The translations under genes and the position numbers were made by a program. Of a stretch of DNA of 64,000 nucleotides, positions 17,338 to 22,370 are shown piece after piece. The stretch covers positions 1,652,501-1,716,500 of the forward strand of contig NZ_CP144374.1 in NCBI RefSeq assembly GCF_040451425.1, written 5' to 3'. The notes below the pieces were generated by a model. It searched no databases and had not been told where the DNA came from. It saw only the letters and a list, made by a program, of their open reading frames with translations. Source of the DNA: Thermodesulfovibrio sp. 3462-1 (GTDB taxonomy: Bacteria > Nitrospirota > Thermodesulfovibrionia > Thermodesulfovibrionales > Thermodesulfovibrionaceae). Positions within the stretch are counted from its first letter, which is position 1, and each line of letters starts with the position of its first letter.

Positions 17338-18359
17338 CTATAAATACTTTTCAATTAAGACTTCCGCAATTTGCACAGCATTAGTGGCTGCACCCTTTCT
17401 CAAATTGTCTGCCACAATCCAGAGATTTAAGCCATTTTCAATCGAAAAATCTTCTCTAATTCTTCCCACAAAAACTTCATCTCTTCCTGCTACTTCAATT
17501 TGCAGGGGATATAGTTTTTGCTGAGGATCATCAAGAACTATTACCCAGGTGCCTTTCTTAGAATCTCTATTACCTCTTCGACCGACAATTTTTTCTCTGT
17601 TTCTACATTTACAGATTCAGCATGACCGTAAAAGACAGGAACTCTTACTGTAGTAGCTGTAACCCTAATACTAGGGTCTTCCATAATTTTTTTAGTCTCT
17701 TCAACCATTTTCATTTCTTCTTTAGTGTATCTATTTGGCAAAAAAACATCTATGTGAGGAATACAATTAAAAGCTATAGTTTGAGGTAGATGTTTAGCAG
17801 GAGGTAGAGGTTCTCCTGAACACCAAGCCTTAATCTGGCTTATAAGCTCATCAATAGCCTTTTGTCCTGCCCCTGAAACGGATTGATAAGTGGAGACTAC
17901 AATTCTCTTAATTTTAGCTACCTCATGGATAGGTTTTAAGGCTACCACCATTTGAATAGTAGAACAATTGGGATTAGCAATGATACCTTCGGTTTTGTAT
18001 TTGGAAATAGCATGAGGGTTAACTTCAGGAACTACAAGGGGGACCTCTGGATCCATCCTCCAGGCACTTGAATTATCAATTACTACAGCACCATCATTTG
18101 CAAATTTGGGAGCATATTCTAAGCTTCTTTGGGCCCCTGCAGAAAAAAGAGCTATGTCAATTCCTTTGAAACTTTTAGTCTCTTCAAGAACCTCAACATT
18201 AATTTCTTCACCTCTAAAAGGGATTTTTATTCCCTTTGATTTTGGTGAGGCAAATAATCTTAATTCTTTTACTGGGAAGTTTCTTTCTTCAAGGACATTG
18301 ATCATCATTCTTCCTACAGCCCCAGTTGCTCCAACTACAGCTACTGTGTATTCCTTCAT
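17338..18359 (-). pseudogene. asd: Aspartate-semialdehyde dehydrogenase, one frameshift
   Basis: Asd reduces aspartyl phosphate to aspartate semialdehyde for lysine, threonine and methionine synthesis. The N-terminal part has 'VVGATGAVGRMMINVLEERN', the catalytic cysteine 'IANPNCSTIQMVVALKPIH' and 'STYQSVSGAGQKAIDELISQ'. The frame stops after codon 272 at a GGG run (17544-17546). Adding one G continues with 'VIVLDDPQQKLYPLQIEVAG' and 'DNLRKGAATNAVQIAEVL' to a stop at 17338, giving the normal ~340 residues. A good ribosome site (GGAGGTATTTTC) precedes the ATG. An essential gene with a frameshift implies an assembly error or a second copy elsewhere. Confidence 0.85.
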
Positions 18360-18445
18360 GAAAATACCTCCTTCCTTGAGATTTTAAGGAAAGTCTAAAT
18401 TAGATCAAATGAAAATTACCACGATGAAATTGCTTTGACAAGAGT

Positions 18446-18792
18446 TCAAACTTTTTGCTGTAGGAGAATCCCAACAAGTTCCTGCAATCTCTGGGATAGT
18501 TTAAGAAGTTCTTCAGGGGGGATTTGTTTTATTATTTCTCCTGTGTCTTTTCTTATAACCTGAACCACAAGAGTTTCATATTTTTTATCATAAACTATCT
18601 TTGCATCAAGGTCAAAGAGGGTCAAAAATTCCTTAAAATGTTCGGCAATTTCCTTTAGCTTTTCCTTATCTATTCTTAGGGAGGGCTCTTTAATAATTTC
18701 TTTTTTATAACTTTCGTTGCTTCATTAGGAAAGTTTCCCTTTTGTGCTAAAGTTTGATCTAAGACCAAATTTTTATAGAGTTCGACTTTCAT
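18446..18792 (-). pseudogene. flaG: FlaG-family flagellar protein, one frameshift
   Basis: The start ATG at 18792 opens 'MKVELYKNLVLDQTLAQKGN'. After 37 codons the frame is lost in an A6 run near 18712-18717. The next frame reads 'KEIIKEPSLRIDKEKLKEIA', then 'FDLDAKIVYDKKYETLVVQV' and 'TGEIIKQIPPEELLKLSQRL'. The 'I.QIPPEE.L' ending is the FlaG signature (family knowledge). FlaG influences flagellar filament length. No other flagellar gene is nearby, so this copy is isolated and probably not functional as written. Confidence 0.75.
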
Positions 18793-18895
18793 AATAGTCC
18801 CCTTTTTTAGAGAGTTTTTTATAATTTTCGGAAAAAATTTGAGTTACTTTAATTTAATAAACTCCTCTTTAATTCTAACCCACTTAGCATCTAAT

Positions 18896-18961: not shown

Positions 18962-20128
18962 ATGCCTATTGGAAGAGAAAAGAGTGTGATTCTTGATCAG
19001 CAAGATAAAAAGGTTAGGGAACAGCTTTCTAAAATAAAACACAAAATTATGGTAATGTCAGGCAAGGGAGGGGTAGGGAAAAGCACCATAGCAGTAAACA
19101 TTGCTGTAGGTCTATCCTTGCAAGATTTTATGGTAGGACTTCTTGATGTGGACTTACATGGACCAAGCGTTCCCAAGATGCTTGGGGCAAGGGATTTAAA
19201 ACTTACCAGAAGACCTGATGGAAGGCTTGGGGCTATAAAATATTCCCCTAATCTTAAATTTCTCTCCATTGAACCTCTTCTTCCTTCAGAGGATTCTGCC
19301 ATTATCTGGAGAGGCCCTATTAAGATTTCAGCTATTAAACAATTTATTGGAGATATTGATTGGGGTGAACTTGACTATCTCATTATTGATGCCCCTCCTG
19401 GTACAGGGGATGAACCATTAACAGTAGCTAAAACTATACCAGATGCTTATGCTCTAATTGTCACAACACCTCAAGAAGTTTCTCTAATTGATGTTAAAAA
19501 ATCAATAAGATTTTGTCAAAAGGTAAAAATGAGGATTCTTGGACTTGTTGAAAATATGAGCGGGTTTATTTGTCCTCATTGTGGAAAACCCCTTGATCTT
19601 TTTAAAAGAGGGGGAGGACAAAAACTTGCTGAGGAAATGGGAATAAGATTTCTTGGGAAAATTCCTGTTGATCCACGCATCGTTGATACTGGTGATAGAG
19701 GTAAACCTATTGTAGGAGCCTATCCTGAGAGTGTGACAGCTCAGGCTTTTGAAGATTTAATAAGAAATATTGTTTCGGCAACGGAAGAAATGGTACGTGA
19801 GGTCCTGGAAGAAAAGTTTATGAGAATTGCCTGTCCTGTCTCAACTCCTCAAAAGTTTGAACCTAATATTGAAAAAATGGAGTTATTTGCCTTATACGAT
19901 ATTGAAAACAGTAAGATTCTTGTAAAAGATGTTGTTAAGAAACCTGATGATCAGGATTTAATTGATTTTTTGAAAGAACAAGTTGCCACTCATATAGTGT
20001 TACATAATCCACCAAAGGAGCTTGCAGACAAACTTTCAGCTAATCAAATAAGGGTTCTTATTGCAGAAACACCCGAGGCAAATCCAGACAATCTAATTCA
20101 GGAATATCTCCAATCTAAGGTCCAGTAG
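18962..20128 (+). CDS. mrp: Mrp/NBP35-family Fe-S carrier ATPase with C-terminal NifX-like domain
   Basis: This 388-residue protein has the deviant Walker A 'VMSGKGGVGKSTIAVNIAVG', then 'DVDLHGPSVPKMLG', 'DYLIIDAPPGTGDEPLT' and the cluster-binding 'FICPHCGKP' (CxxC). It assembles and transfers 4Fe-4S clusters in the cytosol. The last ~110 residues ('RIACPVSTPQKFEPNIEKME' to 'LADKLSANQIRVLI') resemble the NifX/NifB-type dinitrogenase cofactor domain, a fusion known from anaerobes (family knowledge). It is intact, has its own promoter, and its stop is directly followed by the dual-CXXC gene. Confidence 0.88.
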   Translation: MPIGREKSVILDQQDKKVREQLSKIKHKIMVMSGKGGVGKSTIAVNIAVGLSLQDFMVGLLDVDLHGPSVPKMLGARDLKLTRRPDGRLGAIKYSPNLKFLSIEPLLPSEDSAIIWRGPIKISAIKQFIGDIDWGELDYLIIDAPPGTGDEPLTVAKTIPDAYALIVTTPQEVSLIDVKKSIRFCQKVKMRILGLVENMSGFICPHCGKPLDLFKRGGGQKLAEEMGIRFLGKIPVDPRIVDTGDRGKPIVGAYPESVTAQAFEDLIRNIVSATEEMVREVLEEKFMRIACPVSTPQKFEPNIEKMELFALYDIENSKILVKDVVKKPDDQDLIDFLKEQVATHIVLHNPPKELADKLSANQIRVLIAETPEANPDNLIQEYLQSKVQ

Positions 20129-20278
20129 ATGGAAGACTTTCTTAAGTGTAAATATTGTGGAGGGAAGGCAATTATTACTGGAACCTGAGCAAAAGGCAAG
20201 GTAAGGTGCCTTACCTGTGGAATTGAAAGACCTGTAAAAGAATACGAAGAAGAGATTGAAGAGTTAAAAAAAAGATGA
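20129..20278 (+). CDS. Dual-CXXC mini-protein with in-frame TGA, candidate selenoprotein
   Basis: The frame of 50 codons starts right after the mrp stop. It contains CKYC (residues 7-10) and CLTC (27-30), forming a small zinc ribbon or thiol pair, then a charged helix ('EYEEEIEELKKR'). Codon 20 is TGA (20186-20188). The frame before and after is conserved in style and ends properly, and an 8-base inverted repeat lies at 20199-20216. I recall a family annotated as dual-CXXC small (seleno)proteins, which supports selenocysteine insertion. The alternative is a nonsense mutation (for example TGG to TGA) in a decaying region. Function is unknown, likely redox or metal-related. Confidence 0.55.
20199..20216 (+). 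promoter_or_regulatory. Candidate bacterial SECIS hairpin
   Basis: AGGTAAG pairs perfectly with CTTACCT around the loop GTGC (20206-20209). The loop begins 18 bases after the TGA and starts with GT. The published bacterial SECIS rules (apical loop 16-37 bases from UGA, loop of 3-14, a G among its first two bases, upper stem of at least 4 pairs) are all met. No experiment or folding run supports it yet. Confidence 0.45.
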
Positions 20279-20317
20279 TTAATAATTTCATTAGCTGTAG
20301 CCTTGAGGAGGAATCCC

Positions 20318-21543
20318 ATGAATTACCTCAAAAAATTAATAAAAAAAGATAAAAAAGTTAAAATTATACTTATTGTGCTTGATGGAGTAGGAGACCTAGG
20401 AGTAAGAGAGGGTAGGACACCCCTTGAACTTGCTTCAACTCCTAATCTTGATAAGATAGTAAAATTTTCTGCTACAGGTTTACATATACCTGTTGATTAT
20501 GGAATTACTCCTGGAAGTGGACCTGGACATCTTGGCTTATTCGGATATGAACCTTTGAAATTAGAAATTGGTAGAGGAATTCTTGAGGCTTTAGGTGTAG
20601 GACTTGAGGTAAAAGAGACAGATGTGGCTATTAGGGGAAATTTTGCTACTGTAACCTATGAAGCAGGAAAGCCTATTGTCGTTGATCGTAGAGCAGGAAG
20701 GATATCTACAGAAGAAAATAAGCGTTTGATCAGGTATTTATCAGAAAATATTAAGAAAATTGATGATGTTGAAGTGATTTTATGTTCAGGTAAAGAACAT
20801 CGCTTTTCTTTATTGCTAAGATTTCCCTATAAGCTTTCACCTCTTGCTGAAAAGATAAATGATACAGATCCTCAAGCTACAGGTAAAGAACCCTATTTAC
20901 CTAAGGGTGAAAATGAAGAGGCCCAAAAGGTAGCAGAGATTGCTCAAAAATTTATTGAAATTACAGGGGAGCTTTTGAAAAACGAACCCAAGGCTAATTA
21001 TGTGCTTTTAAGAGGTTTTTCAGTAAAACCTGACATAGAGCCTTTCCATGAGAGATTTGGTCTTTCTAGTCTTGCATTGCAGTATACCCTATGTATAAGG
21101 GCCTTGCAAGGCTTGTAGGTATGGATGTTATAACCTTTGAGGGAGAAACCATTCAAGATGAAATCAATGCCTTGAAAAAATATTATAATGATTATGACTT
21201 CTTCTTTATCCACATTAAGAAAACCGATTCCTTTGGTGAAGATGGAAATTTTGAAGGGAAAATTTCAGTAATTGAAGAATTTGATAAACAATTTCCAGAA
21301 ATTTTATCTTTAAAGCCTGATGTCTTAGCCATAACAGGTGATCATTCAACTCCCTGTTCGATGAAGTCTCATTCCTGGCATCCTGTTCCAGTTTTAATAT
21401 ATTCTCCTTATTGTTTAGGAAACTTATCGCAAAGATTTACTGAAAGAGAGTGTTTGAAAGGTGAACTTGGTATTTTCCCAAGCTTTAAATTAATGCCTCT
21501 ATTGCTAGCTCATTCTGGAAAATTAGCTAAATTTGGCGCATAA
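20318..21543 (+). pseudogene. apgM: Cofactor-independent phosphoglycerate mutase (archaeal type), one frameshift
   Basis: ApgM interconverts 2- and 3-phosphoglycerate in glycolysis. The ATG at 20318 follows GAGGAGG. Visible motifs are 'VLDGVGDLGVREGRTPLELA', 'TPGSGPGHLGLFGYEP' (catalytic serine region), 'FFFIHIKKTDSFGEDGNFEG' and 'ITGDHSTPCSMKSHSWHPVP' (metal ligands). The frame changes near 21074-21077, where one missing base separates 'FGLSSLA' from 'MYKGLARLVGMDV'. Repaired length is ~408 residues, normal for the family. A second gene elsewhere would be expected if the defect is real. Confidence 0.85.
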
Positions 21544-21570
21544 AACTAAATAGTTAGCGCATAAAACTAA
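21536..21570 (+). repeat. Short direct repeat at a segment junction
   Basis: GCGCATAAAACTAA occurs at 21536-21549 (covering the apgM stop) and again at 21557-21570, a 21-base period. It sits between the block of decayed housekeeping genes and the duplicated fecE fragment, so it may mark a joint. Confidence 0.6.
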
Positions 21571-21601
21571 GCAGTCATTGGAGCTCTATAAAAATCGATT
21601 T

Positions 21602-21831
21602 AACTTTTGAGGAAATTAACAAAAAAGTTGAACTTAATTACAATAATCGTGCTATATGGCCTTAACCTTGCTATTGGGTTGGCTGATTATTTTATTTTTA
21701 TGAAAAGTGGGAAAATTTATCATATGGGAGACTCCTCCATAATTGAACCTTCCCTTTTAAAAAATGTCTATGATATAAATGTAAAAATAATAGAAGTTGA
21801 AGGACGAAAGTTTGTAATAGCATATTCTTAG
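21602..21831 (+). pseudogene. Duplicated 3' fragment of the fecE ATPase gene
   Basis: The last ~76 codons of the ABC ATPase gene at 28320-29075 recur here at a constant offset of 7244 bases, with few differences. Similarity continues ~25 bases past the stop. In the H-loop region 'VLHDLNLAIG' reads 'VLYGLNLAIG', so the switch histidine is lost. It has no Walker motifs and cannot function. With the full gene it forms direct repeats around the TonB-Fec cluster. Confidence 0.85.
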
Positions 21832-21904
21832 TGGACAAGATTATCTATCTGTTATAATTTTTCATGCTCTTATATAGACAAATAAACTTTAAACTGAAAA
21901 AGTA

Positions 21905-22249
21905 TTGAGGGAAATGGACGGATTAAAAAGGATTAATCGAGATGAATTTATTAACAACAAAAGAAACTATCTTATCGCAAAACACTATTTAGGAAGAGCT
22001 CTGGAAGGCATCTTGATGATTGGTAATCATTTTCTTTCAAGGCTGGGAGCAAAAACAAAGGATTATCAGGAGATAATATTAAATTTTGGCTAAAATGGTC
22101 TTGTTCCTATGGAATTGGCTGAAAAGAATAAAATCTTACAGTATACTGTAACAGACTTGTTTATATTTATTGGATATTTATTGGGAAGTAACACTAAAGG
22201 AGCTTTAAAAAGTAATAAATCAATCTTGTAATGACATTTTCAATTTCTA
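21905..22249 (+). pseudogene. HepT-like HEPN toxin (DUF86), decayed
   Basis: The reading 'FINNKRNYLIAKHYLGRALE' and 'GNHFLSRLGAKTKDYQEIIL' is typical DUF86. It ends in a TAA after 'NFG', but the same frame continues 'NGLVPMELAEKNKIL'. Then the RNxxxH catalytic region is recognisable only in shifted frames ('CNRLVYIYW' where RNRLVHxYW is expected), followed by 'WEVTLKEL' and 'KVINQSCNDIFNF'. At least one stop, two frame changes and loss of the catalytic His are visible. HepT is the RNase toxin of the MntA-HepT pair (family knowledge). The matching MNT gene is at 11288-11586. Confidence 0.7.
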
Positions 22250-22370
22250 TTAATATTACACAGAAATACTTAAAAATTCCAAAAAGTTTGGATTCTATAA
22301 TAGAACATGATAGGAAATTAAATTTTTTGCTTTAACATTTCAACCCAAGAAGGGTAGATTAGTCAAGTAG

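Follow-up and report, generated by a model that had tools for sequence, protein, structure and literature searches.

A probable dual-CXXC selenoprotein gene of the NF041197 family, divergent and truncated, in a redundant gene block of Thermodesulfovibrio sp. 3462-1

The stretch of Thermodesulfovibrio sp. 3462-1 DNA analysed in this work (64,000 nucleotides, referred to as the window) contains a small gene whose ATG (20129) adjoins the TAG stop codon (20126-20128) of an mrp gene. The frame comprises 49 codons plus a stop, with TGA as its codon 20; it is next closed by the TGA at 20276-20278, and no ATG, GTG or TTG that might serve for restarting was present in the frame remaining 3' of codon 20. 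Coordinates and translation agreed with the sequence-only reading, which had described a dual-CXXC mini-protein with a TGA at codon 20 of an otherwise sound frame beginning at the mrp stop; both CXXC motifs were present in the translation. The features of the locus were as follows:

17341-18359, - strand: asd, second copy, frameshifted near 17550
18962-20128, + strand: intact gene for an mrpORP-type P-loop iron-sulfur carrier, directly upstream of the small gene (NF041136, E 1e-125, 419.8 bits vs. a cut-off of 450)
20129-20278, + strand: putative dual-CXXC selenoprotein gene of the NF041197 family, 49 residues with the TGA read as Sec, C-terminally truncated with respect to its orthologues (translation, profile match and four orthologues)
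20147-20158, + strand: first CXXC (C7-K-Y-C10), invariant in 40 aligned members
20186-20188, + strand: putative selenocysteine UGA, codon 20
20199-20216, + strand: candidate bacterial SECIS, 7-bp stem and GUGC loop
20207-20218, + strand: second CXXC (C27-L-T-C30), overlapping the hairpin, invariant in 40 aligned members
20262-20350, + strand: out-of-frame remnant of the C-terminal tail of the orthologues, KKMINNFISCSLEEESHE vs. KESLINHFGQCSFEGDSYE
20303-21543, + strand: apgM (phosphoglycerate mutase), second copy, frameshifted near 21070

The sequence-only reading had pointed to a family of dual-CXXC small (seleno)proteins, and the family was correctly named: it corresponds to NF041197, known as the selenoproteins OS_HP3 and hypothetical protein DW (PMC13188914, PMC12013277, PMC9312934). 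The window protein matched NF041197 with E-values of 5e-8 to 6e-9 (32.9 to 35.8 bits, depending on the end taken), but stayed below the curated cut-off of 40 bits, reaching 37.7 bits even with the tail read through. Four orthologues scored above the cut-off (40.3 to 45.1 bits): L044, from a Thermodesulfobacterium sp. MAG; L045, from T. hydrogeniphilum; L046, from Thermodesulfobacteriaceae UBA6232; and L047, from a Thermodesulfobacteriales MAG. Since the window protein scores under the cut-off and its four orthologues pass, it was assigned as a divergent, truncated homologue by orthology and not by its own score. C7, C10, C27 and C30 were invariant in the 40-sequence alignment, so that the two CXXC motifs of NF041197 are present, and the TGA lies at the middle site, which holds Sec or Cys in this family. 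The window gene is thus a further, divergent, truncated member of an already catalogued selenoprotein family.

Near its 3' end, the window gene is one base shorter than L046, and its C-terminal tail is out of frame as a consequence: the tail of L046 matched two frames in tblastn, and the tail of the orthologues runs on in another frame of the window after an A8 run. The frame of 49 residues thus represents a truncated form, and 20278 is probably not the ancestral end of the gene. This out-of-frame C-terminus had been missed by the sequence-only reading. The Cys of the C-terminal tail, present in 72 of 81 conventional members, is out of frame in the window copy. Tail length varies among the orthologues.

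The block formed by asd, a flaG-like gene (a label assigned by eye), mrpORP, the selenoprotein gene and apgM showed approximately 80% nucleotide identity to the UBA6232 MAG carrying L046 (93% identity in the case of mrpORP). Asd and the flaG-like gene (both within 17341-18801), as well as apgM (20303-21543), were each split between two frames. Intact copies of asd (G000:C1:1769539), apgM (G000:C1:1335265, 61% identical) and a separate Mrp (C1:412084) are encoded elsewhere in the host genome. None of the 15 other genomes of the family showed this block, and Mrp, if found there, was only 48-51% identical; this distribution suggests that the block was probably imported. The frameshifts may reflect recent decay or sequencing error, which are indistinguishable from one assembly, but decay is favoured because the damage seen so far was confined to the redundant block. 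The mutations of the neighbourhood had been noticed from the sequence, but not that they belong to a redundant, decaying and probably imported block. An apparently degenerate stretch follows apgM (21600-22300); within it lies a relic (21896-22123) that shares 28% identity with a gene likewise located downstream of the block in L046. A short direct repeat, GCGCATAAAACTAA, lies at 21535-21572, right after the end of apgM, where the match to L046 stops, and could mark an old insertion boundary. Searches for a plasmid origin gave no plasmid match, and a phage origin of the window gene was discarded, with weak Lar-like phage profiles at most.

The TGA was present at the position of codon 20 in all four orthologues (five of five including the window), with the frame running on in each. 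Downstream of the TGA, 11 of the 13 differences between L046 and the window gene fell at third codon positions, as did 17 of 24 in the case of L047 (P = 2e-4 in both), a codon pattern indicative of purifying selection acting on this part of the gene. The family was matched in 163 of 395 genomes sampled from the phylum. The middle codon of the 86 members retrieved was TGA in 80 and TGT or TGC in 6 (75 and 6, respectively, of 81 members without the window gene and its four orthologues), though the retrieval pattern demanded a stop or Cys at this site, and the lack of other residues is therefore partly built in. Against this, all 86 loci inspected matched the pattern, and when the 395 genomes were searched without this rule, nearly all the matches contained exactly one TGA. 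Homologues thus carried a Sec codon or Cys throughout, with no Trp or Arg among those examined, which is the comparison at position 20 that had been proposed as a check. The six Cys-for-Sec versions were L014, L022, L027, L016, L117 and L118; selA was not seen in three of their six genomes (G241, G243 and G186), which would fit a change from Sec to Cys together with the loss of Sec decoding. Across the sample, selA was present in 135 of 143 genomes with a TGA copy vs. 39 of the 252 others, a difference to which shared ancestry contributes; the eight genomes with a TGA copy and no visible selA are perhaps explained by incomplete assemblies.

The host genome (1.82 Mb, single contig) encodes the genes for Sec decoding, whose search had also been suggested: a tRNA-Sec with anticodon UCA, selA (617 bits), selB (398.7 bits) and selD (L012, G000:C1:324402-325322). 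In this last gene, the motif AGUAAKIGP contains an in-frame TGA, which makes selD itself a selenoprotein gene and the use of Sec by this genome very probable. These data bear on the rival that the sequence-only reading had kept in view, namely a plain nonsense change at codon 20 of a gene encoding Cys or Trp at this site, the frame being a pseudogene. The frameshifts in asd, flaG and apgM, and in the tail of the gene itself, speak for such a reading; but the same TGA in four orthologues of other genomes and in 75 of 81 relatives at the aligned site, the purifying selection downstream of it and a host decoding Sec make a nonsense change highly improbable. It was rejected on the conservation of the TGA in independent genomes and on the codon pattern that follows.

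An inverted repeat, AGGTAAGG/CCTTACCT (20199-20206 and 20209-20216), follows the TGA. When folded, positions 20199-20205 paired with 20210-20216 (7 pairs), leaving a GUGC loop at 20206-20209 which starts 17 nt after the TGA (-8.9 kcal/mol). These values for loop (4 nt), stem (7 bp), distance (17 nt) and energy fit the published constraints for bacterial SECIS elements (PMC13188914), in line with the 8-base repeat, 7-pair stem and GTGC loop from which a SECIS had originally been proposed. The window hairpin by itself was mildly unusual: z = -1.1 against dinucleotide shuffles, and P = 0.05 for stem length and P = 0.01 for energy when synonymous codons were randomised. Its weight as evidence lies in its conservation and not in the folding statistics of the window alone. 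All 35 pair cells were standard across the five aligned orthologues (window included), with one compensatory double change from A-U to G-C in L047, and conservation was lost when the pairing was slid, although the shuffle control (112/500) was not significant with five sequences. In a 47-nt piece, the minimum-energy folds of L045 and L046 deviated from the common hairpin. Rfam gave no match above chance near the window gene. A stop codon directly preceding a hairpin might also mean that the frame ends at the TGA, as a 19-residue leader or regulatory peptide followed by a terminator or attenuator. There is no T run 3' of the hairpin, and past the TGA both reading frame and residues are maintained in five genomes with a third-position bias; this reading is likewise highly improbable, and was rejected on the same two grounds as the nonsense change.

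The TGA is thus very probably a real Sec codon (probability about 0.9, based on comparative sequence evidence): the UGA of an NF041197-family gene which would be read as Sec in the cell by the SelA, SelB, SelD and tRNA-Sec of the host, with the hairpin just downstream serving as a putative in-gene SECIS. The four cysteines of the CXXC motifs may bind zinc in a small ribbon, and the Sec, placed in a turn between two strands, may supply the reactive selenol of a redox or thiol reaction involving a partner. An AlphaFold2 model obtained from the five sequences (mean pLDDT 82.4, pTM 0.56) predicted three short strands and a C-terminal helix. Sec20 occupies the turn linking strand 13-17 to strand 24-27, and the outer ends of these two strands carry the CXXC pairs. 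Structural matches of the model were mostly zinc ribbons, all weak (none with E < 0.001), and solved structures gave weak zinc-ribbon matches at most; a zinc-ribbon scaffold presenting a selenol in a loop is the best guess for the mechanism. The neighbourhoods of 30 conventional copies (58 genes) revealed no common partner, the most frequent neighbour being ribosomal protein L13 with 6 occurrences out of 58. L044 and L045 adjoin a dnaX-like gene, and L047 is located downstream of a topA-like gene (assigned by eye from translations).

In the family tree, the window gene and its four orthologues formed a separate branch with a long stem (100/100 support, from few alignment columns); across 176 genomes of the order, no representative of this five-member branch turned up apart from the window's own. 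The window copy falls in a branch distinct from the conventional copy of the genome (G000:C1:1354397) and probably arrived with a foreign block that is now decaying; its tail was lost to a frameshift. Tentatively, and at somewhat less than even odds, the branch may be a distinct subfamily with its own role, a Sec gene and its SECIS having been transferred horizontally into a Sec-decoding host already equipped with a diverged member, and then having begun to decay. There is an even chance that the window copy, a true selenoprotein gene by descent, is a dying duplicate, perhaps still translated with Sec but non-functional without its tail, the work being done by the conventional copy; this is compatible with the Sec reading of the TGA, and goes beyond it only in taking the copy for dead. 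Of the other block genes, three out of four are frameshifted, with asd and apgM intact elsewhere, and the tail itself is frameshifted, leaving out of frame the Cys typical of the family (72/81). Against this, the Sec codon, the two CXXC motifs, the hairpin and the adjoining mrpORP are all undamaged; orthologue tails differ in length, and the frameshifts could be sequencing errors.

Annotation that takes the TGA as a stop would end the window gene at codon 20 and overlook it; the gene also scores under the curated cut-off of its family. The biological surprise is small, as the family was already catalogued as selenoproteins; to this known family, the present work contributes a separate branch whose hairpin has a different position, a conventional second member in the same genome, a block shared with UBA6232 and a frameshifted tail. 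The window copy, which may be a decaying duplicate, offers an example of what may befall a Sec gene that lies within a probably foreign block.

Among known systems, Lar restriction-alleviation proteins and other zinc ribbons (PF14354, S27e, aIF2-beta) have a cysteine spacing similar to that of the window protein, but similarity in profile and fold was weak, all matches being under cut-off or statistically weak; these proteins are not known as selenoproteins.

The closest likeness was to NF041197 (dual CXXC motif small (seleno)protein; OS_HP3; hypothetical protein DW), which shares with the window gene two CXXC motifs flanking Sec or Cys at the corresponding alignment position, a small size, a TGA followed by a downstream hairpin, and its presence in the same phylum (PMC13188914, PMC12013277). 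The window branch differs in the spacing of Sec and the second CXXC (one residue more), in its motif GTU A..[KR]VRCLTCGIERP, in the absence of the usual C-terminal W...RxC[DN]R tail, and in its separate position in the tree, the window copy lying under the curated cut-off. The host genome also encodes a conventional NF041197 copy (L048, G000:C1:1354397-1354552, 47.4 bits), which has the dual CXXC and a TGA at the aligned site. Its predicted hairpin covers the second CXXC and has a longer loop than that of the window. L048 is 39% identical to the window gene, differs from it in the tail and in the position of the hairpin and, unlike the window gene, is orthologous to copies in its genus-mates.
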